DNA of 36,751 bases from Lachnospiraceae bacterium (GTDB lineage Bacteria; Bacillota; Clostridia; Lachnospirales; Lachnospiraceae): positions 1 through 36,751 of the forward strand of contig JAAVAA010000097.1 of NCBI GenBank assembly GCA_014804285.1, written 5' to 3'. This document shows, in pieces, positions 1 through 26,182 of this stretch. Position 1 is the stretch's first letter. Each line of letters starts with the position of its first letter. A program made the position numbers and the translations under genes. The notes beneath the pieces are model-generated. The model ran no database searches. It was not told where the DNA came from and saw only the letters and a list, made by a program, of their open reading frames with translations.

Positions 1-216
1 TCTTAAGGAGCCCTTTAAAAAGCGTCAGCACTTAGTGAGGTTTTTTTTTTTTTTTTGCTGTTACGCTTTTTATAGAACGAGAGTGTGGCGACGTAGAATT
101 TGATTTCTATCCGGGTTTTATATTGATCTCTGTATCCCAGCTAAACGCTAACTTAGTGACGTTGTCTTAAGGCACAAGCATGAAGATTTTTTCCTTAAAA
201 AATTATTCAGCAGATA

Positions 217-245
217 TTGACAAATAATTAACAATATGCTATTAT
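217..245 (+). promoter_or_regulatory. Sigma70/SigA-type promoter for the riboswitch-hflKC transcript
   Basis: TTGACA (217-222), 17-nt spacer, TATTAT (240-245); predicted start about 252, just before riboswitch P1. Confidence 0.7.
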
Positions 246-253
246 CATCTCAA

Positions 254-362
254 CAGATAAAAGGGAGTAGCTTATATCCCATAAGAAGGATATACTTGAA
301 ACGTCAGGACGATGGAAACATCCGTTTCGAGTCAGGTGGAACTGTAGCAAGACTTTTATCGC
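254..362 (+). promoter_or_regulatory. yybP-ykoY family (Mn2+-sensing) riboswitch aptamer
   Basis: P1 GATAAAAG (256-263) pairs with CTTTTATC (353-360); conserved GGGAGTAGC and GTAGCAAGAC elements; internal stems TATATCC/GGATATA, GAAACG/CGTTTC and GATG-GAAA-CATC preceded by CGTCA, matching the recalled yybP-ykoY architecture. Confidence 0.88.
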
Positions 363-394
363 AGCGTAAATGCCGCGATAAAGGTCTTTTTTTA
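348..394 (+). terminator. Intrinsic terminator (expression platform) mutually exclusive with riboswitch P1
   Basis: AGACTTTTATCGC ... GCGATAAAGGTCT followed by a T7 run; the 5' arm overlaps the 3' strand of P1. Confidence 0.85.
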
Positions 395-439
395 AACCTT
401 GTAAACGGTATTTACAGGAAAACAAAAGGAGGGCATGTT

Positions 440-1519
440 ATGTTAGGAAAGAAAAAAAGCAATGTTTATCAACAGAAGGAGCCGGGGCAGGTTGGTGCGA
501 AATTGGGGAAAACGGCAGGCATCATTGTAGGTATATTTGCGGTGGTTTATCTGCTGGCAGGAAGTGTATATTCCCTGAAGGAAAATGAATATGCGGTAGT
601 CAGTACCTTTGGGGTACCGTCGATTGTGGAGGAGTCGGGCATTCACTTGAAGATTCCTTATATACAAAGACTTCATAAGGTCCCCAAGACCATTAATGGT
701 TTCCCTATCGGATATCGGACAAACAGCGACGAATCGGTGGATGCGGAGTCCTTTATGATTACAAGAGATTACAATTTTGTGAATGTGGACTTTTATGTGG
801 AGTACCGGGTAACGGATCCTGTCAAATACCTGTATTCATCGGAGAGCCCGATTGATGTTTTGAAGATGCTTACCCAGAGCTATATCAGGGACACCATTGG
901 TCTGTATGACGTGGACAGCGTGATCACTACCGGAAAGAACGAGATACAGGCATCGATCAAGGAAAAGATTATCGGACGTTTGGAGAAGGAAGATATTGGT
1001 ATCCAGCTTGTGAACATCACGATACAGGATGCGGAGCCGCCTACTCAGGAAGTGATCAATGCTTTTAAGAATGTGGAGAATGCAAAGCAGGGAAAGGAAA
1101 CTTCCATTAATAAGGCAAATCAAAAGAGGAATGAGGATATTCCTGCTGCCAGAGCATTAGCCGATGAAACGGTTAAGACTGCGCAGGCGCAGGCCGAGGA
1201 GCGTGTGAATGAAGCGAAAGGACAGGTTGCAAGGTTAAATGAGCTTTATGCTGAGTATCAAAAGTATCCGCTGATTACCAAGCAGAGAATGTTTTATGAG
1301 ACTATGGAAGAGATTTTGCCGGATATGAAGGTAATTATTGAAAAAAGTGATGGAAGCACTCAGACCATGCTGCCCTTGGAGTCCTTTACGGGGGGTTCAG
1401 ACAATGCCGTAACTTCAAACAATTCGACAGGTGCAGGACTTTGGAGTACGACAGGAACGGATAGCAGGCAGAATACAGTAGATTCCGAACAGGAAGCTGC
1501 TTCGGAAGATGAAAATTAA
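440..1519 (+). CDS. hflK: SPFH/band-7 protein, FtsH modulator HflK
   Basis: N-terminal TM then band-7 domain (ENEYAVVSTFGVPSIVEESGIHLKIPYIQ..), Ala/Glu-rich coiled coil, paired with hflC. Start moved to 440 (MLGKKKSN, preceded by AGGAGGG) because the longer ORF from 236 translates the riboswitch. Confidence 0.88.
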   Translation: MLGKKKSNVYQQKEPGQVGAKLGKTAGIIVGIFAVVYLLAGSVYSLKENEYAVVSTFGVPSIVEESGIHLKIPYIQRLHKVPKTINGFPIGYRTNSDESVDAESFMITRDYNFVNVDFYVEYRVTDPVKYLYSSESPIDVLKMLTQSYIRDTIGLYDVDSVITTGKNEIQASIKEKIIGRLEKEDIGIQLVNITIQDAEPPTQEVINAFKNVENAKQGKETSINKANQKRNEDIPAARALADETVKTAQAQAEERVNEAKGQVARLNELYAEYQKYPLITKQRMFYETMEEILPDMKVIIEKSDGSTQTMLPLESFTGGSDNAVTSNNSTGAGLWSTTGTDSRQNTVDSEQEAASEDEN

Positions 1520-1543
1520 CGGAGGAAAGGAAGGTTAGGAATT

Positions 1544-2410
1544 ATGAAGAAAAAATCTTTTATGGTAACAATAATCATGGTGTTTTTCCTTGCATTTATT
1601 TTGCTCAATGCGGGATTGGTAGTTACTTATCCTAATGAATATACAGTGATCAAGCAGTTTGGAAGGATAGAAAGTATCAGGAGTCAGCCGGGAGTAAGCG
1701 TGAAGATACCTTTTATCCAGACGGCGGAGAAGATTGAAAAGGAAGTGCTGTTGTACGATCTTGCAGTAAGCGACGTTATGACGAAAGACAAAAAATCAAT
1801 GATTGCCGACTGCTTTGTGCTTTGGAGGATCGATGATCCTTACAAGTATACCCAGACCTTAAGCGCCCAAAAGAGTAATGCGGAATTCCGTATTGATACC
1901 ATCGTATATAATAGTCTGAAAAATGTGATCAGCAGCTTAAGCCAGGAGGAAGTGATCAGCGGTCGTGACGGGGAACTTGCCCAGGCGATAGAGGATAATA
2001 TCGGGGATACTTTAAGCCAGTATGGTATTACCCTGCTGGCAGTGGAGACCAAGTCTCTGGATCTGCCGGACGAAAACAAAAATGCAGTTTATGAGCGTAT
2101 GATCTCTGAACGGAACAACATAGCGGCAACCTATCAGGCGGAAGGACAGGAGGAAGCAAAGGAGATTTCCAATAATACCAATGCGGAGATCATTGTCATG
2201 CAGTCGGAAGCAGATGCCCAGGCGGAGGAGATTATTGCAAAAGGAGAGGCAGAGTACATGCGTATTTTAAGCGATGCTTATAATGATCCGGAAAAGGCAG
2301 ACTTTTACCTGTTCTTAAGATCTCTGGATGCGGCAAAGAAGACTATGACCGGAAACAATAAGACGTTGATCATTGATGAGACTTCGCCCATCGCGCAGAT
2401 CTTTTACTAA
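1544..2410 (+). CDS. hflC: SPFH/band-7 protein, FtsH modulator HflC
   Basis: N-terminal TM, NEYTVIKQFGRIESIRSQPGVSVKIPFIQ, coiled coil, C-terminal FYLFLRSLDAAKKTM typical of HflC. Confidence 0.9.
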   Translation: MKKKSFMVTIIMVFFLAFILLNAGLVVTYPNEYTVIKQFGRIESIRSQPGVSVKIPFIQTAEKIEKEVLLYDLAVSDVMTKDKKSMIADCFVLWRIDDPYKYTQTLSAQKSNAEFRIDTIVYNSLKNVISSLSQEEVISGRDGELAQAIEDNIGDTLSQYGITLLAVETKSLDLPDENKNAVYERMISERNNIAATYQAEGQEEAKEISNNTNAEIIVMQSEADAQAEEIIAKGEAEYMRILSDAYNDPEKADFYLFLRSLDAAKKTMTGNNKTLIIDETSPIAQIFY

Positions 2411-2443
2411 GATGTTATTTTTGCAAATATGGAAGGGAATAGA

Positions 2444-2472
2444 TTGCAAAAAAAGGGGGGCTATGATATAAT
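2444..2472 (+). promoter_or_regulatory. Promoter of butyrate operon
   Basis: TTGCAA (2444-2449), 17-nt spacer, TATAAT (2467-2472), upstream of thl. Confidence 0.75.
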
Positions 2473-2560
2473 TAAAGCCATGGCAATGATAAAAAATTAA
2501 CAATCGTTGCGGGACAAAATATAATAAAAATAAGTTTTCAATCGAACGGAGGAATGAACA

Positions 2561-3745
2561 ATGGCAAAGAAAGTAGTTTTAGCCGGTGCATGCCGTACTG
2601 CAATCGGTACCATGGGCGGCTCACTCAGCACAACACCTGCCGCTGAGCTTGGTGCAATTGTTATCAAGGAGGCTTTAAACAGAGCAGGAGTTGCTCCCGA
2701 AGCAGTAGATCAGGTATACATGGGATGCGTTATCCAGGCCGGTCTTGGACAGAACGTAGCACGTCAGGCATCCATCAAAGCGGGATTACCGATTGAAGTA
2801 CCTGCAGTTACCATGAACGTAGTCTGCGGTTCCGGTCTTAACTGTGTAAACCAGGCAGCGCAGATGATTATGGCAGGGGATGCTGATATCGTTGTAGCAG
2901 GCGGTATGGAAAATATGTCCATGGCTCCCTACGCAGTTCCTCAGGGACGTTACGGATACAGAATGAACAATGGTGTTTTAGTAGATACCATGATCAAGGA
3001 TGCTCTCTGGGATGCATTCAATGATTACCACATGATTACTACAGCAGACAATATCTGCAGGGAATGGGGTCTTACCAGAGAAGAGCTGGACGAGTTCGCA
3101 TTAAAGAGCCAGCAGAAAGCAGAAGCAGCTCAGAAGTCCGGCGCATTTGATGCAGAGATCGTACCGGTTATGGTTAAGAAGAAAAAAGAAATGGTTGAGT
3201 TTAAGGTGGATGAAGGTCCTCGTGCAGGTTCTACTATTGAAGGTCTTGCAAAGCTTCGTCCTATTAATCCCGACGGATTTGTTACCGCAGGAAATGCATC
3301 CGGCATCAATGACGGTGCAGCGGCAATCGTAGTGATGAGCGAAGAGAAGGCGAAAGAACTGGGCGTTAAGCCTATGGCAACCTTTGTGGCTGGAGCGCTT
3401 GCAGGCGTACGTCCTGAGGTTATGGGTATCGGTCCTGTTGCATCTACCAAGAAGGTTCTTGCTAAGACAGGTATGAAGATTGAAGACTTTGATATCATAG
3501 AGGCAAACGAAGCATTTGCAGCACAGTCCGTAGCAGTCGGCAAGGATCTTGGAATTGATGTTGATAAGCAGCTCAATCCTAACGGCGGCGCTATTGCACT
3601 TGGACACCCTGTAGGAGCTTCCGGATGCCGAATCCTTGTAACCCTGCTTCATGAGATGCAGGCAAAGGGAGCTAAGACAGGTCTTGCTACCCTGTGTATC
3701 GGTGGCGGCATGGGCTGCTCCACGATCGTTAAAATTGAGGATTAG
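2561..3745 (+). CDS. thlA: Acetyl-CoA acetyltransferase (thiolase)
   Basis: Thiolase motifs [35 protein letters not shown] and CIGGGMG; first gene of a thl-crt-hbd-bcd-etfBA cluster. Confidence 0.97.
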
Positions 3746-3752
3746 TTAACAG

Positions 3753-3820
3753 ATAGTGAACGACATGATGTCGTTCACTATAACATGATAAGCAGGCTTA
3801 AATTTTTAGGTCTGCTTATC
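3753..3820 (+). promoter_or_regulatory. Two consecutive intergenic hairpins between thl and crt
   Basis: ATAGTGAACGACAT-g-ATGTCGTTCACTAT (3753-3781) and GATAAGCAGGC...GTCTGCTTATC (3787-3820); no trailing U-run. Confidence 0.7.
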
Positions 3821-3876
3821 CGAATGTCTGGGAATAGTTAACGAGCGCCGGGAAGTGGCGCAGAAAAGAGGTTAAA

Positions 3877-4662
3877 ATGGAATTTATCGTATACGAGCAG
3901 AAAGGTACATACGGCATTATCACCATCAGCCGTGAAAAGGCGCTGAATGCATTGAACTCACAGGTTCTTGAAGAACTGGACAAAACACTGGATGAGGTAA
4001 ATCTTGACGAAGTAAGATGTCTGATCTTAACAGGCGCAGGGCAGAAGTCTTTTGTAGCCGGCGCAGATATCGGCGAGATGAGCACACTGACCAAAGCAGA
4101 AGGCGAAGCTTTTGGAAAGAAGGGAAATGATGTGTTCCGCAAGCTGGAAACTTTCCCCATTCCCGTTATTGCAGCAATCAATGGATTTGCATTAGGCGGC
4201 GGCTGTGAGATTTCCATGAGTTGTGATATCCGTATCTGTTCCGATAACGCGGTATTTGGACAGCCGGAGGTTGGTCTTGGAATTACTCCCGGCTTTGGCG
4301 GCACACAGAGACTGGCACGTCTTGTAGGTGCAGGCATGGCAAAGCAGATGATTTACACAGCTAGAAATATCAAGGCTGACGAGGCATTCAGGATTGGTCT
4401 TGTAAACGCTGTATATACTCAGGAAGAGTTGATGCCTGCAGCAGAAAAGATGGCGGCTGGTATTGCAAAGAACGCTCCTATTGCTGTAAGGAACTGCAAG
4501 AAGGCAATCAATGAAGGACTGGATGTTGATATGGATCAGGCAATTGTGATTGAAGAGAAGCTTTTTGGCGATTGCTTTGAGACAGAAGATCAGAAATACG
4601 GCATGGCATTTTTCCTTGACAAAAATAAAGAAAAAGTAAAAGAGCCTTTTAAGAACTGCTAG
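3877..4662 (+). CDS. crt: 3-hydroxybutyryl-CoA dehydratase (crotonase)
   Basis: Enoyl-CoA hydratase signatures SFVAGADIGEM and INGFALGGGCEISMSCDIRI; operon context. Confidence 0.96.
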   Translation: MEFIVYEQKGTYGIITISREKALNALNSQVLEELDKTLDEVNLDEVRCLILTGAGQKSFVAGADIGEMSTLTKAEGEAFGKKGNDVFRKLETFPIPVIAAINGFALGGGCEISMSCDIRICSDNAVFGQPEVGLGITPGFGGTQRLARLVGAGMAKQMIYTARNIKADEAFRIGLVNAVYTQEELMPAAEKMAAGIAKNAPIAVRNCKKAINEGLDVDMDQAIVIEEKLFGDCFETEDQKYGMAFFLDKNKEKVKEPFKNC

Positions 4663-4673
4663 TTGATTTTACT

Positions 4674-4702
4674 ACTGCCAAAAGGCATCATCATTTGGCA
4701 GT
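4674..4702 (+). promoter_or_regulatory. Intra-operon hairpin crt-hbd
   Basis: ACTGCCAAA ... TTTGGCAGT 9-bp perfect stem. Confidence 0.6.
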
Positions 4703-4737
4703 GAAAAATACAAACAAAAATAATAGGAGGAATGAAA

Positions 4738-5580
4738 ATGAAAGTAGGTATTATTGGTGCTGGTACCATGGGTGCCGGAATCGCACAGGCTTTTGCAATG
4801 ACAGATGGTTATGAAGTTTGTCTCTGCGATATCAAGATGGAGTTCGCTGAGGGCGGAAAAGCAAGAATTCAGAAGAACATGAACTTCCTGGTAAGCAAGG
4901 AGAAAATCACACAGGAAAAAGCAGACGAGATCATGGCTAAGATTACCTGTGGTTTAAAGGATATTTGTACAGACTGTGACCTGATCGTGGAGGTTGCTCC
5001 TGAGAACATGAAGATTAAGAAGGATACCTTTAAGGAGCTTATGGATATTGTTAAGCCTGACTGCATGTTCGCATCCAACACTTCTTCTCTTTCTATCACA
5101 GAGATCGGTGCCGGCCTTGACAGACCTATGATCGGTATGCATTTCTTCAATCCGGCAGACAGAATGAAGCTGGTAGAAGTAATTGCAGGTGAGAATACAC
5201 CGGATGATATGGTAGAAAAAATCAAAGCAATCGCAACAGAGATCGGCAAGACACCTGTACAGGTTAAGGAAGCTCCCGGCTTTGTTGTAAATAGAATTCT
5301 GATCCCGATGATCAACGAAGCAATCGGTATCTATGCTGATGGTATTGCAAGCGTAGCTGATATTGATGAAGCTATGAAGCTTGGTGCAAGCCATCCCATG
5401 GGACCTCTGGCTCTTGGTGATCTGGTTGGTCTGGATATCGTGCTTGCTATCATGGAAGTGCTTCAGAGCGAGACAGGCGATCCCAAGTATCGTCCTCATC
5501 CCCTTCTTCGCAAGATGGTCCGCGCAGGCAAGCTTGGTAAGAAGACTGGCGTAGGTTTCTATGATTATTCAAAGAAATAA
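4738..5580 (+). CDS. hbd: 3-hydroxybutyryl-CoA dehydrogenase
   Basis: Rossmann [14 protein letters not shown] and [15 protein letters not shown]; start 4738 (or 4732). Confidence 0.96.
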
Positions 5581-5627
5581 TTGTTTGTAGTAAATAATAT
5601 AGCATGACAAATGGAGGAAGTAATATC

Positions 5628-6782
5628 ATGGATTTTATGTTAACCAAACAACATGAAATGGCTAGAACTCTTTTTAAAGAGTTCGCAGAAAAAGAAGTAA
5701 AGCCTCTGGCACAGGAAGTCGATGAGACTGAAGTTTTCCCCAGAGGAACTGTTGAAAAGATGGCAAAAGCCGGTTTTCTTGGAATTCCTGTTCCCAAGGA
5801 GTACGGCGGACAGGGATGCGATCCTTTAACCTACGCTATGTGTGTTGAGGAGCTTTCCAAGGTTTGCGGTACCACAGGCGTTATCGTTTCTGCACATACA
5901 TCACTTTGCTGTGACCCGATCATGACATATGGAACCGAAGAGCAGAAGCAGAAATACTTAGTACCTCTTGCAAAGGGCGAGAAGCTGGGCGCATTTGGTC
6001 TTACCGAGCCCGGTGCTGGTACAGACGCACAGGGACAGCAGACTAAGGCTGTTCTGGATGGAGATGAGTGGGTACTTAACGGATCCAAGATCTTTATCAC
6101 AAACGGTAAGGAAGCTGATGTTTATGTTATTTTCGCAGTTACAAGTGTTGTAACGGATGCAAAGGGCAGAAGCAAAAAGATGATCTCCGCATTTATCGTT
6201 GAGAAGGGAACACCCGGCTTTACCTTTGGTACAAAGGAAAAGAAAATGGGTATCCGCGGCTCATCTACTTATGAGCTGATCTTTACAGACTGCCGTATCC
6301 CGAAAGAGAACCTTTTGGGACAGGAAGGCAAGGGCTTTGGTATCGCTATGCATACTCTTGACGGCGGACGTATCGGTATCGCTGCACAGGCTCTCGGTAT
6401 TGCAGAAGGCGCTTTAGACAGAACTGTTGAGTACGTAAAAGAGAGAAAGCAGTTCGGAAGAGCCATCGGCGCATTCCAGAATACACAGTTCCAGCTTGCA
6501 GATATGGCAACCAAGGTTCAGGCTGCTCAGCTTATGGTATACCGCGCAGCAATGGCTAAGGCTACCCAGAAGGTTTACTCCGTAGAAGCAGCAATGGCTA
6601 AGCTGTACGCAGCAGAGGTTGCTATGGAAGTAACAACCAAGGCAGTTCAGCTCCATGGCGGATATGGCTACATCAGAGAGTACGACGTAGAGCGTATGAT
6701 GAGAGATGCCAAGATCACCGAGATCTACGAAGGAACATCCGAGGTTCAGAGGATGGTCATCTCCGGTGCATTGCTTAAGTAA
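5628..6782 (+). CDS. bcd: Butyryl-CoA dehydrogenase (acyl-CoA dehydrogenase)
   Basis: Acyl-CoA dehydrogenase signatures GAFGLTEPGAGTDA and QLHGGYGYIREYDVERMMRDAKITEIYEGTSEVQRMVI; GGAGG upstream of ATG 5628. Confidence 0.96.
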   Translation: MDFMLTKQHEMARTLFKEFAEKEVKPLAQEVDETEVFPRGTVEKMAKAGFLGIPVPKEYGGQGCDPLTYAMCVEELSKVCGTTGVIVSAHTSLCCDPIMTYGTEEQKQKYLVPLAKGEKLGAFGLTEPGAGTDAQGQQTKAVLDGDEWVLNGSKIFITNGKEADVYVIFAVTSVVTDAKGRSKKMISAFIVEKGTPGFTFGTKEKKMGIRGSSTYELIFTDCRIPKENLLGQEGKGFGIAMHTLDGGRIGIAAQALGIAEGALDRTVEYVKERKQFGRAIGAFQNTQFQLADMATKVQAAQLMVYRAAMAKATQKVYSVEAAMAKLYAAEVAMEVTTKAVQLHGGYGYIREYDVERMMRDAKITEIYEGTSEVQRMVISGALLK

Positions 6783-6834
6783 TGCAAATCCGGTAACAGA
6801 AAATTAACAGATAATAAATAAGGAGAGAAATACA

Positions 6835-7617
6835 ATGAAAGTTGTTGTTTGTGTTAAACAGGTACCTGATACCAAGGGCGGCGTTAAGTTTAATCCCGAT
6901 GGTACTCTTGACAGAGGTGCAATGCTTACGATCATGAATCCTGATGACAAAGCAGGTCTTGAAGCAGCCCTTAGATTAAAAGATCAGTATGGAGCAGAAG
7001 TTACCGTAGTTACCATGGGTCTTCCTAAAGCAGAAGAAGTTCTGCGTGAGGCTATGGCTATGGGAGCTGACAAGGGAATCCTTGTTACAGACAGAGTACT
7101 GGGCGGAGCAGATACATGGGCAACCTCCCAGACACTGGCAGGCGCTATCCGTAATCTGGAATATGACCTGATCATTACAGGACGTCAGGCAATCGATGGT
7201 GATACCGCACAGGTTGGACCTCAGATTTCCGAGCATCTTGGAATACCGGTAATTTCTTATGCACAGAATATCAAGATTGATGGCGACAGCGTAATCGTTG
7301 AGCGTCAGTATGATGACAGATATCACGTATTAAAGGCTAAAATGCCCTGTCTGATCACAGCGCTTGCTGAGTTAAATGAGCCTCGTTATATGACTCCCGG
7401 CGGAATTTTCGATGCATACAATGCAGAGATCACAGTATGGGGAAGGGCTAATCTGGTTGATGTAGAAGACTCTAACTTAGGACTTAAGGGTTCACCTACC
7501 CAGATCGCAAAGGCTTCCGATAAGGTAAGAAAGGGTGCAGGCGAGAAGGTTACTCTTGATCCCGCTGAATCCGTTGATTACATTATCGATAAGTTAAAAG
7601 TAAAACACGTCATCTAA
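6835..7617 (+). CDS. etfB: Electron transfer flavoprotein subunit beta
   Basis: MKVVVCVKQVPDT..., DLIITGRQAIDGDTAQVGP. Confidence 0.96.
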   Translation: MKVVVCVKQVPDTKGGVKFNPDGTLDRGAMLTIMNPDDKAGLEAALRLKDQYGAEVTVVTMGLPKAEEVLREAMAMGADKGILVTDRVLGGADTWATSQTLAGAIRNLEYDLIITGRQAIDGDTAQVGPQISEHLGIPVISYAQNIKIDGDSVIVERQYDDRYHVLKAKMPCLITALAELNEPRYMTPGGIFDAYNAEITVWGRANLVDVEDSNLGLKGSPTQIAKASDKVRKGAGEKVTLDPAESVDYIIDKLKVKHVI

Positions 7618-7641
7618 TAAAGATATTAATGGAGGTTCAAA

Positions 7642-8685
7642 ATGAATATTCAAGATTATAAGGGCGTATTTGTCTTCGCTCAGCAGGTTGATAATGAGCT
7701 TAGCGGAATTGCTTTGGAATTAGTCGGAAAAGGCAAAGACCTCGCTAAGGATTTAGGAACAGAAGTAACAGCAGTACTGGTTGGTTCAGGCGTTGGCGCT
7801 CTGACAGATACACTTGGAGAATACGGTGCTGATAAGGTTATCGTAGTAGATGACCCCGAATTAAAGGAATATAGAACAGAGCCTTATGCACATGCACTTT
7901 CATCTGTTATTAATGAGTTCAAGCCTGAGATTTTCCTGGTAGGAGCTACTGCAATTGGACGTGATTTAGGTCCCAGAGTATCCGCAAGAATTCATACAGG
8001 ACTTACAGCAGACTGTACACAGCTTGATATCGGTGATTTCCCGATCAACCCGGTTCCGGGCAAAGAGCAGCTTCATAATCAGCTCCTCATGACCCGTCCG
8101 GCTTTCGGCGGAAATACTATCGCAACCATTGCATGTCCGGAGTTCCGTCCTCAGATGGCAACTGTACGTCCCGGTGTTATGCAGAAAGCACCTAAGGAAG
8201 CTGGCAGAAAAGCAGAGGTTATTAATTACAATCCCGGCTTTACACCCAATGATAAGTATGTAGAAATCTTAGAGGTTGTTAAGGCTGTTTCAGACGTAGC
8301 TGATATTATGGATGCAAAGATTCTGGTATCCGGCGGACGTGGCGTAGGAAGCCCGGAGAACTTTAAGATTCTGGAAGATCTGGCAGAGGTACTTGGCGGT
8401 ACCGTAAGCTGCTCCCGTGCAGTTGTAGATGCAGGCTGGAAGCCCAAAGATCTGCAGGTAGGACAGACAGGTAAGACGGTACGTCCTAATGTATACTTTG
8501 CAATCGGTATCTCCGGTGCAATCCAGCATGTAGCAGGTATGGAAGAAGCTGATATCATCATTGCAATCAATAAGGATGAGACAGCGCCTATCTTTGAAGT
8601 AGCTGATTACGGACTTGTTGGCGATTTGAACAAGATCGTTCCTGCACTTACAGAGAAGCTGAAAGTTGAATTAGCTGAGAAATAA
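7642..8685 (+). CDS. etfA: Electron transfer flavoprotein subunit alpha
   Basis: VSGGRGVGSPENFKILEDLAEVLGG, GQTGKTVRPNVYFAIGISGAIQHVAGM. Confidence 0.96.
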   Translation: MNIQDYKGVFVFAQQVDNELSGIALELVGKGKDLAKDLGTEVTAVLVGSGVGALTDTLGEYGADKVIVVDDPELKEYRTEPYAHALSSVINEFKPEIFLVGATAIGRDLGPRVSARIHTGLTADCTQLDIGDFPINPVPGKEQLHNQLLMTRPAFGGNTIATIACPEFRPQMATVRPGVMQKAPKEAGRKAEVINYNPGFTPNDKYVEILEVVKAVSDVADIMDAKILVSGGRGVGSPENFKILEDLAEVLGGTVSCSRAVVDAGWKPKDLQVGQTGKTVRPNVYFAIGISGAIQHVAGMEEADIIIAINKDETAPIFEVADYGLVGDLNKIVPALTEKLKVELAEK

Positions 8686-24169: not shown

Positions 24170-25792
24170 TTACACTTTTAATTTTGCAGTTTCTTCTTCT
24201 ATCACCTTTTTATCAATTCGCTGAAATAGAATTTCTATTTCAGGAAGCTGATATCCGGAAGGAACAGACTGATGTTCCCACTGATTGGTGATGTTCAGCC
24301 ATCCGCAGATTTTTTTCGAGGAAAAAGGCAGGAACGGATAGAGAAGAATCGCTAAATTAGCGATGATCTGGACACATTGATAAAGAGCGTCTTTACAGTC
24401 ATGCTCGTCAGTACTCCGGGTAATCCATGGCTGTCTGGTATCAAAAAATTTGTTTGCAGAGCGTATGAAGCTAAACAGTTCCTGCAGGGCATCTTTGAAA
24501 GCGCCTTTTTCGATCAGGCGTCCTATTGCCGGGTATAATGCCTCGATTTTGGCATTTAGTTCCGTATTCGGTGAGCCCTCCGGAACGATACCGTCCCAAT
24601 ATTTGTTGATAAAGGATAAAGAACGGTTGATGAAATTTCCATAGGCGCCCAATAATTCGCCGTTGTGGCTGTATACATAGTCGCGCCATGAGAAATCAGA
24701 ATCCTTCTTTTCCGGACCGTTTGCCAGGAAATAGTAGCGGATAGAGTCCGGTTCATAGTGCAGCAGCAGATCCTTTACCCAGATAGCATAGTTTTGACTG
24801 GTGGATATTTTCCTGCCCTCCAGAGTCAGATATTCGCAGGAAACGATTTGATCCGGTAAATGCCAGGACGCGTCATTTCCGATTAAAAGCGCGGGCAGGA
24901 TGATGGTGTGGAAGGGAATGTTGTCTTTTCCATGAATATAATAATGTTTGGAGTCTGAGCCCCAAAGGCTGGCAAAGTCACCGTGGCCGTTATCAGCAGC
25001 AATCTTGCTTGCGGACAAGTAACCCAACACGTTCTCAGCCCAGATATAAATGGTTTTCTTGTCATAGCCTTCTTTCGGCACAGGGATGCCCCAGTCAAGA
25101 TCCCTCGTCAGGGCACGGTCTCTCAATCCCTCATGGATATACTTTTGGGTGAATGCTATGGCATTTTTCCGCCATGCCGGGCGGGTGCTGACAAGTTCTG
25201 TCAGCTCCTTTTCCAGAGCTGAAATTGCTATATACAGGTGCTTGGACGTACGGAAACTGATAGGTCTGCTACATATAGCGCATAGCGGTTCCAGCAAATT
25301 TTCAGGTTCCAGTACGGTTCCGCAGGTATCACACTGATCACCCCGGGTCTCATCTCCGCATTTGGGGCATTTCCCGATTACAAAGCGGTCTGCAAGGAAT
25401 GTGCCGCATTCTTCACAATATGCCTGGGGAACCTCCTTTTCATAAACATAAGGGCTCTCATAAAGCTTTTTGTGAAATTGTGTCACAAATTCTTTGTGCT
25501 CCGGAGAGGAGGTTTTGGTGTATACATCGTAACTGAATCCTAATTTTTGAAAACATTCTTTAAATTCCTCGTGATAATAATCGCTGATTTCCAGAGGCGT
25601 TTTTCCTTCCTTTTTGGCACGGATCGCAACCGGCGTTCCATGGCAGTCGCTGCCGGAGACAAAATATACACGGTCACCCACCGCCCTGTGATATCTTGCT
25701 AATACATCGCCTGGGAGCAATCCCGCAATATGGCCTATATGCAAAGAACCGTTGGCGTATACCCAGGCATTTCCAATTAAAATATTTTTCAT
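24170..25792 (-). CDS. metG: Methionyl-tRNA synthetase, four-CxxC (double zinc-knuckle) type, atypical KISTS loop
   Basis: ANGSLHIGHIAGLLPGDVLARYHR, SGSDCHGTPV, CEECGTFLADRFVIGKCPKC / CDTCGTVLEPENLLEPLCAIC, LEGRKISTSQNYAIWV. Confidence 0.9.
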   Translation of the reverse strand: MKNILIGNAWVYANGSLHIGHIAGLLPGDVLARYHRAVGDRVYFVSGSDCHGTPVAIRAKKEGKTPLEISDYYHEEFKECFQKLGFSYDVYTKTSSPEHKEFVTQFHKKLYESPYVYEKEVPQAYCEECGTFLADRFVIGKCPKCGDETRGDQCDTCGTVLEPENLLEPLCAICSRPISFRTSKHLYIAISALEKELTELVSTRPAWRKNAIAFTQKYIHEGLRDRALTRDLDWGIPVPKEGYDKKTIYIWAENVLGYLSASKIAADNGHGDFASLWGSDSKHYYIHGKDNIPFHTIILPALLIGNDASWHLPDQIVSCEYLTLEGRKISTSQNYAIWVKDLLLHYEPDSIRYYFLANGPEKKDSDFSWRDYVYSHNGELLGAYGNFINRSLSFINKYWDGIVPEGSPNTELNAKIEALYPAIGRLIEKGAFKDALQELFSFIRSANKFFDTRQPWITRSTDEHDCKDALYQCVQIIANLAILLYPFLPFSSKKICGWLNITNQWEHQSVPSGYQLPEIEILFQRIDKKVIEEETAKLKV

Positions 25793-25884: not shown

Positions 25885-26176
25885 TCATTAAAAAAGCCCT
25901 CCTCTCTGAAAATTTCTTTTCAGGGACGAGAGCCTTATGCTTCGTGTTACCACCCTAAATTCACTTAGACCTCACGGTATAAGCCTTATCAACTACGGAT
26001 GAGAAATGATTCATCGATAGTCTATCACTGTAACGGGTGCACCCGTCGTAGCCTTGGCAGATTTGCTTCGGTACGCAGCTCCGGGACCATTTTCGACAGT
26101 TCCTTCTGTGCCTGCTCTCACCAACGCAGACTCTCTGTGACGTATCTAACCATCTACTCTTCCCTTCATTGCCTTT
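25885..26176 (-). promoter_or_regulatory. T-box leader upstream of metG
   Basis: Minus strand: AGGGTGGTAACACG T-box sequence (25944-25957), downstream terminator CTCTCGTCCCTGAAAAGAAATTTTCAGAGAGGAGGGCTTTTTT, Stem I GGTGAGAGCAGGCACAGAAGGAACTGTCGAAAATGGTCCCGGAGC with a candidate ATG specifier. Confidence 0.92.
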
Positions 26177-26182
26177 CGCAGT

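Follow-up and report, generated by a model that had tools for sequence, protein, structure and literature searches.

A probable P4-reduced riboswitch of the yybP-ykoY class in the leader of hflK-hflC from a Lachnospiraceae bacterium

An hflK-hflC gene pair in a Lachnospiraceae bacterium is preceded by a structured leader, which raises the question of whether these genes are controlled by a metal-sensing riboswitch of the yybP-ykoY (Mn2+) class. The window, the whole stretch of DNA analysed here, comprises 36,751 nucleotides and makes up an entire contig of a draft genome of 3.49 Mb. We consider the leader to be a transcriptional ON riboswitch of this class, in a P4-reduced form that the Rfam model RF00080 does not recognise, with a probability of roughly 0.8. 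Homology and folding point to Mn2+ as the likely ligand and to the likely direction of switching, and from these we infer a physiological role that may include a link to membrane proteolysis.

Architecture and conservation of the leader

The features of the locus are as follows.

217..245, + strand: sigma-70-type promoter TTGACA-17-TATTAT, 11 of 12 matches, start site expected at about 252
254..362, + strand: yybP-ykoY-type aptamer (model R1, 78.7 bits, E 2.3e-18, with the window itself in the R1 seed; fold; covariation)
256..263, + strand: 5' strand of the P1.1 switch helix, pairing with 353-360 (fold and covariation)
263..271, + strand: conserved GGGAGTAGC, L1 plus the P1.2 5' strand (G270, C271) (sequence; P1.2 covaries C-G/T-A)
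273..294, + strand: P2 hairpin, 273-279 with 288-294 (fold and covariation)
295..331, + strand: P3 arm, with P3.1 295-302/324-331, P3.2 311-314/319-322 and a single C323 opposite L3
303..310, + strand: L3 GTCAGGAC, in which A306 is the counterpart of the Mn2+-contacting A41 (L. lactis) and A48 (X. oryzae)
333..344, + strand: rudimentary P4, CAG/CTG, 3 bp (fold; absent in most relatives)
347..360, + strand: conserved GCAAGAC (347-353) and P1.1 3' strand (353-360), also in the terminator 5' arm
349..393, + strand: intrinsic terminator, stem 349-362/375-388, T7 run 387-393
428..433, + strand: ribosome-binding site GGAGGG, 6 nt 5' of the ATG at 440 (sequence)
440..1519, + strand: hflK (TIGR01933, 209.9 bits, cut-off 159.4)
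1544..2410, + strand: hflC (TIGR01932, 153.2 bits, cut-off 134.4)

HflK and HflC both score above the NCBIfam equivalog cut-offs, their genes form an adjacent pair, and a near relative of HflK is found in Acetatifactor (Lachnospiraceae). The initial annotation had placed a promoter, an aptamer and a terminator directly upstream of this pair, with the 3' strand of P1 as the 5' arm of the terminator, and this layout holds: promoter, aptamer and terminator follow one another in 217-393, hflK-hflC lie directly downstream, and the terminator stem contains 353-360. The -10 element of the promoter is preceded by TG and its score is the joint best within 1..3000; in other hflK leaders a TTGACA -35 and a -10 element likewise adjoin the 5' side of the aptamer. 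The fold of 250-395 has a z of -4.56 and outperforms all of 200 shuffles. On the 3' side of hflKC, the genes at 2561-8685 (+) resemble, when read by eye, a thl-crt-hbd-bcd-etfBA butyrate cluster, and two promoter-like sites (2444-2472 and 2497-2525) point to a separate unit. The window also holds an ordinary T-box leader at 25919-26178 (-; 102.6 bits, above the gathering score), and the gene downstream of it (24170-25792, -) reads as methionyl-tRNA synthetase.

The leader contains the features of the yybP-ykoY class, L1 (GGGAGUAGC) and the GCAAGAC strand, which form P1.1, L1 and P1.2. Its likeness to the Mn2+ riboswitches of L. lactis and X. oryzae (RF00080) extends to an L3 of 8 nt with an invariant A, to the overlap of P1.1 with an intrinsic terminator and to a regulon of cation exporters. 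L3 reads UCAGGAC in the window compared with UCAAUUC in L. lactis and ACAUACU in X. oryzae (PMC6754395), and the contacting adenosine is kept. Unlike the RF00080 type, the window has a P4 of only 3 bp, which most relatives lack, gives no RF00080 match and has hflKC as its target. The aptamers that have been crystallised form four-way junctions (PMC6754395), whereas 55 of 74 family copies have at most 11 nt between P3.1 and P1.2, which is too short for a real P4.

Covariation supports the fold. Among 26 related leaders, 84% of the cells in P1.1, P1.2, P2, P3.1 and P3.2 are paired, and the covariation score is 0.592, where shuffles reach 0.211 and slid registers no more than 0.184. These leaders were chosen partly by P3.2 pairing, and the 100% pairing of P3.2 is thus not independent evidence; the other helices, except for the innermost pair of P3.1, played no part in the choice. 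For the hflK leaders alone (n=14), in an alignment fitted to the structure, the score is 0.548 versus 0.205, and P1.1 is paired in 81-91% of the two sets. Across 158 aptamers P1.2 alternates between C-G (120) and T-A (32). In 137 aptamers a single unpaired nucleotide faces L3, and it is C in 128 of them. The two-legged fold of P1-P2 and P3, with covarying helices, is that of the yybP-ykoY class. A first six-sequence MAFFT alignment (A1), in which P2 and P3 were misplaced, was set aside.

The reading frame is open from 236 to 1519 and RF00080 is silent, as might be expected if the leader were a coding N-terminal extension of HflK or resembled the class by chance. The probability of either is negligible, given that the base changes are compensatory, that the leader is common to many unrelated genes and that a ribosome-binding site stands ahead of the ATG at 440. 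The extension from 236 is ruled out by covariation, both in the 26 leaders and in the hflK leaders alone. Chance resemblance is ruled out by covariation in the 26 leaders together with a pattern search, in which the exact three-part core pattern occurred 42 times, in 38 of the 397 family genomes, and its reversed control had no match in the same set.

Class membership and the Rfam model

The initial annotation had called the aptamer near-canonical and had named the lack of a significant RF00080 hit as a ground for abandoning it. A cmsearch run with RF00080 gave no match: neither in the window at the gathering cut-off (45 bits), nor in 180-460 with the threshold relaxed to E<=10, nor at E<=0.001 across the whole 3.49-Mb draft genome; high-E-value matches of other families in 180-460 (JPX, PVT1 and others) are noise. 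By the Rfam yardstick, then, the wording was wrong, and the aptamer is a divergent, P4-reduced form. The silence of RF00080 does not refute class membership, because this model fails on the compact branch as a whole and not on the window alone. Over 150 family genomes, one per genus, it gives three weak matches, all preceding mntP-type genes and none above the cut-off, whereas R1, a covariance model built from the 26 related leaders with the window in its seed, matches 94. RF00080 was also rejected as the deciding test because one streptococcal P-type-ATPase leader that belongs to the class (S. uberis) gets only 23.7 bits from it, below the cut-off of 45.

The comparative evidence upholds the assignment to the yybP-ykoY class, as R1 recognises the window and accepted members alike, all of the latter outside its seed. 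A UPF0016 leader (L105) scores 84.1 bits with RF00080 and 35.3 bits with R1; three mntP leaders (L032-L034) reach 34-36 bits with R1 and 21-28 bits, below the cut-off, with RF00080; an Acinetobacter TerC-type leader scores 28.2 bits and two streptococcal P-type-ATPase leaders 53 and 49 bits with R1. Recognition is thus reciprocal for L105, L032-L034, L081, L083 and L104. The mntP leaders, which come from the same bacterial family, have the same helices as the window, with an L3 of the X. oryzae type (AACATACT) as against GTCANNAC. The reduced P4 may be the cause of the RF00080 miss, as RF00080 assigns the P4 region a long stretch of positions. In this family, a dominant one among gut bacteria, the standard Rfam model passes over most riboswitches of the Mn type.

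Predicted switching mechanism

Folding of the growing transcript with one energy model gave P1.1 a probability of 0.998 at nt 362 and the terminator a probability of 0.998 at nt 385; in that model, forcing P1.1 costs 10.9 kcal/mol relative to the free fold. Termination is therefore the default in this folding, and a ligand would have to hold P1.1 while the polymerase passes. Transcription would start at about 252, and the aptamer would be complete, with P1.1 (256-263/353-360) formed, by about nt 362. At high concentration, Mn2+ is predicted to bind between L1 (GGGAGUA) and L3 (GUCAGGAC) via A306, to dock the two legs and to keep P1.1 closed, which would deny the terminator its 5' arm and allow hflKC to be transcribed. 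At low Mn2+ the more stable terminator would displace P1.1 and transcription would stop at 387-393. The same mechanism has been measured in L. lactis (PMC11087558) and in X. oryzae (PMC6754395), with Mn2+ acting through an invariant adenosine, the counterpart of A306. The ON-switch logic of the initial annotation, in which the ligand stabilises P1 and blocks termination, is supported by the comparative evidence, with its direction taken from homology and folding.

A terminator that is the default fold would also suit a plain attenuator, or a source of terminated small RNA without metal sensing, and Rfam files the streptococcal relative as the small RNA SSRC10, which was detected by Northern blot (PMC3675131). 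Such a role is very improbable for the hflK leader, for an attenuator needs neither the conserved L1/L3 core nor the two-legged fold, and SSRC10 itself precedes a putative calcium transporter gene, as a riboswitch leader would. The streptococcal P-type-ATPase leader (mgtA type; RF02617 SSRC10) shares the core and the terminator layout with the window and differs in preceding a Mn/Ca ATPase gene and in being listed as a small RNA in Rfam. The SSRC10 model scores the relatives L046 and L035 at 43 and 35 bits, and it matches aptamer plus terminator before P-type ATPase genes (L104, L083, L046). The mgtA leader of S. pneumoniae has been published as a Mn/Ca-sensing yybP-ykoY riboswitch (PMC11434433). 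SSRC10 is probably a Mn-riboswitch leader.

Targets, probable ligand and a possible link to membrane quality control

The leader with aptamer and terminator also fronts hflK in other genera. It lies directly upstream of 7 of the 50 true hflK genes in the 150 family genomes, where about 0.02 would be expected by chance according to our own estimate from ~150 copies among ~450,000 genes; the survey of relatives proposed at the outset thus found further cases. Most sampled hflK genes are without this leader, and R1 found no match in the sampled hflK loci taken as leaderless; none of the hflK loci sampled from other families within the order has one either. The leader-bearing genes fall in several separate HflK clades, and the HflK tree needs 8 gains or losses of the leader, of which branches with good support force at least 6. 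Hence hflK is a recurrent minority target. A literature search found no paper joining yybP-ykoY and HflK; the gene lists of Dambach 2015, Price 2015 and Martin 2019 lay outside its scope and may name HflK or flotillin.

The known Mn2+ regulon includes TerC, P-type ATPases and MntP. GTDB representatives carry at least 119 loci of the leader, including relatives of Bacillus, Streptococcus, Acinetobacter and Geobacter. When the downstream genes of the family and GTDB matches listed were clustered by BLAST, P-type ATPases (26), SPFH proteins (22) and Na+/Ca2+ exchangers (21) were found; further clusters among the matches listed were TerC types (15 and 9, named by eye), OadB (14), CitMHS-type permeases (9), UPF0016 (7, named by eye), Na/Pi transporters (7) and HtpX (3), and flotillin genes are also among the targets. 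A sample of 72 copies, mostly the best-scoring R1 family matches plus the three mntP leaders from the RF00080 search, comprised 33 P-type ATPases, 14 Na+/Ca2+ exchangers, 6 OadB, 4 MntP, 3 hflK and smaller groups. Most of the sampled relatives thus serve cation export, through P-type ATPases, Na+/Ca2+ exchangers and MntP. A terminator lies just 3' of the aptamer in 68 of these 72 copies, and the 3' strand of P1.1 is nearly always common to both. The genome of the window has a second, weaker copy (locus L197, G000:C50:71621-71719, -; R1 27.2 bits) before a Na+/Ca2+ exchanger gene. Its L3 is of the other type, AACAATCC, and a terminator overlaps the aptamer. The aptamer pattern was also seen before htpX membrane protease genes (L089, L163, L173) in Geobacter-like and other genomes, and before OadB-type Na+ pump subunits, Na/Pi transporters, CitMHS permeases, CNNM transporters and AI-2E-family and YccF-type operons (L040-L042, L063, L066, L043 and others, for this whole set).

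This range of targets bears on the ligand. The same RNA class with the same P1.1/terminator switch might respond to Ca2+ or to several divalent ions rather than to Mn2+ alone: the regulon is rich in Ca2+-type ATPases and Na+/Ca2+ exchangers and includes Na+-linked transporters, a Mn/Ca-sensing role has been described for the streptococcal relative (PMC11434433), and, relative to L. lactis, L3 has two substitutions and the U44 position carries another base. We regard this as unlikely, as the adenosine whose N7 selects Mn2+ is retained in the mntP leaders and in all copies found by the pattern, which itself required it, and the motif is common to MntP, TerC and UPF0016 genes. With Mn2+ as the ligand, HflKC, the cage of the FtsH protease (PMC12005517), would rise together with the cation exporters under metal overload.

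A link of this kind has a precedent in B. subtilis, where FtsH, HtpX, FloT and FloA co-purify with TerC proteins, which include one controlled by a Mn riboswitch (meeY), and FtsH is essential when the TerC proteins are absent (PMC10550928). That association likewise ties a Mn-riboswitch-controlled gene to FtsH-type quality control; it consists of co-purification and genetics, whereas here the riboswitch itself precedes hflKC and, elsewhere, flotillin or htpX genes. Metal export and membrane quality control may form one system, and a riboswitch before hflKC, flotillin and htpX would fit this hypothesis. On balance we lean towards the view that, in Lachnospiraceae and related Clostridia, metal export is switched mainly by a compact branch of the Mn2+ riboswitch that mostly lacks P4 and escapes RF00080, and that this branch also places HflKC, flotillin and, in Geobacter-like bacteria, HtpX in the exporter regulon, as a regulatory counterpart of the B. 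subtilis association. The principle of the riboswitch itself is known; what is new, within the literature searched, is the RF00080-invisible, P4-reduced form and hflKC as its target. To our knowledge the inducing signals of the FtsH-HflKC complex are poorly known. If the proposal is true, overload of Mn2+, or of a divalent metal, would be directly tied to this membrane proteolysis complex, and it would become possible to test the notion, drawn from work on B. subtilis TerC, that membrane quality control belongs with metal export in one system.
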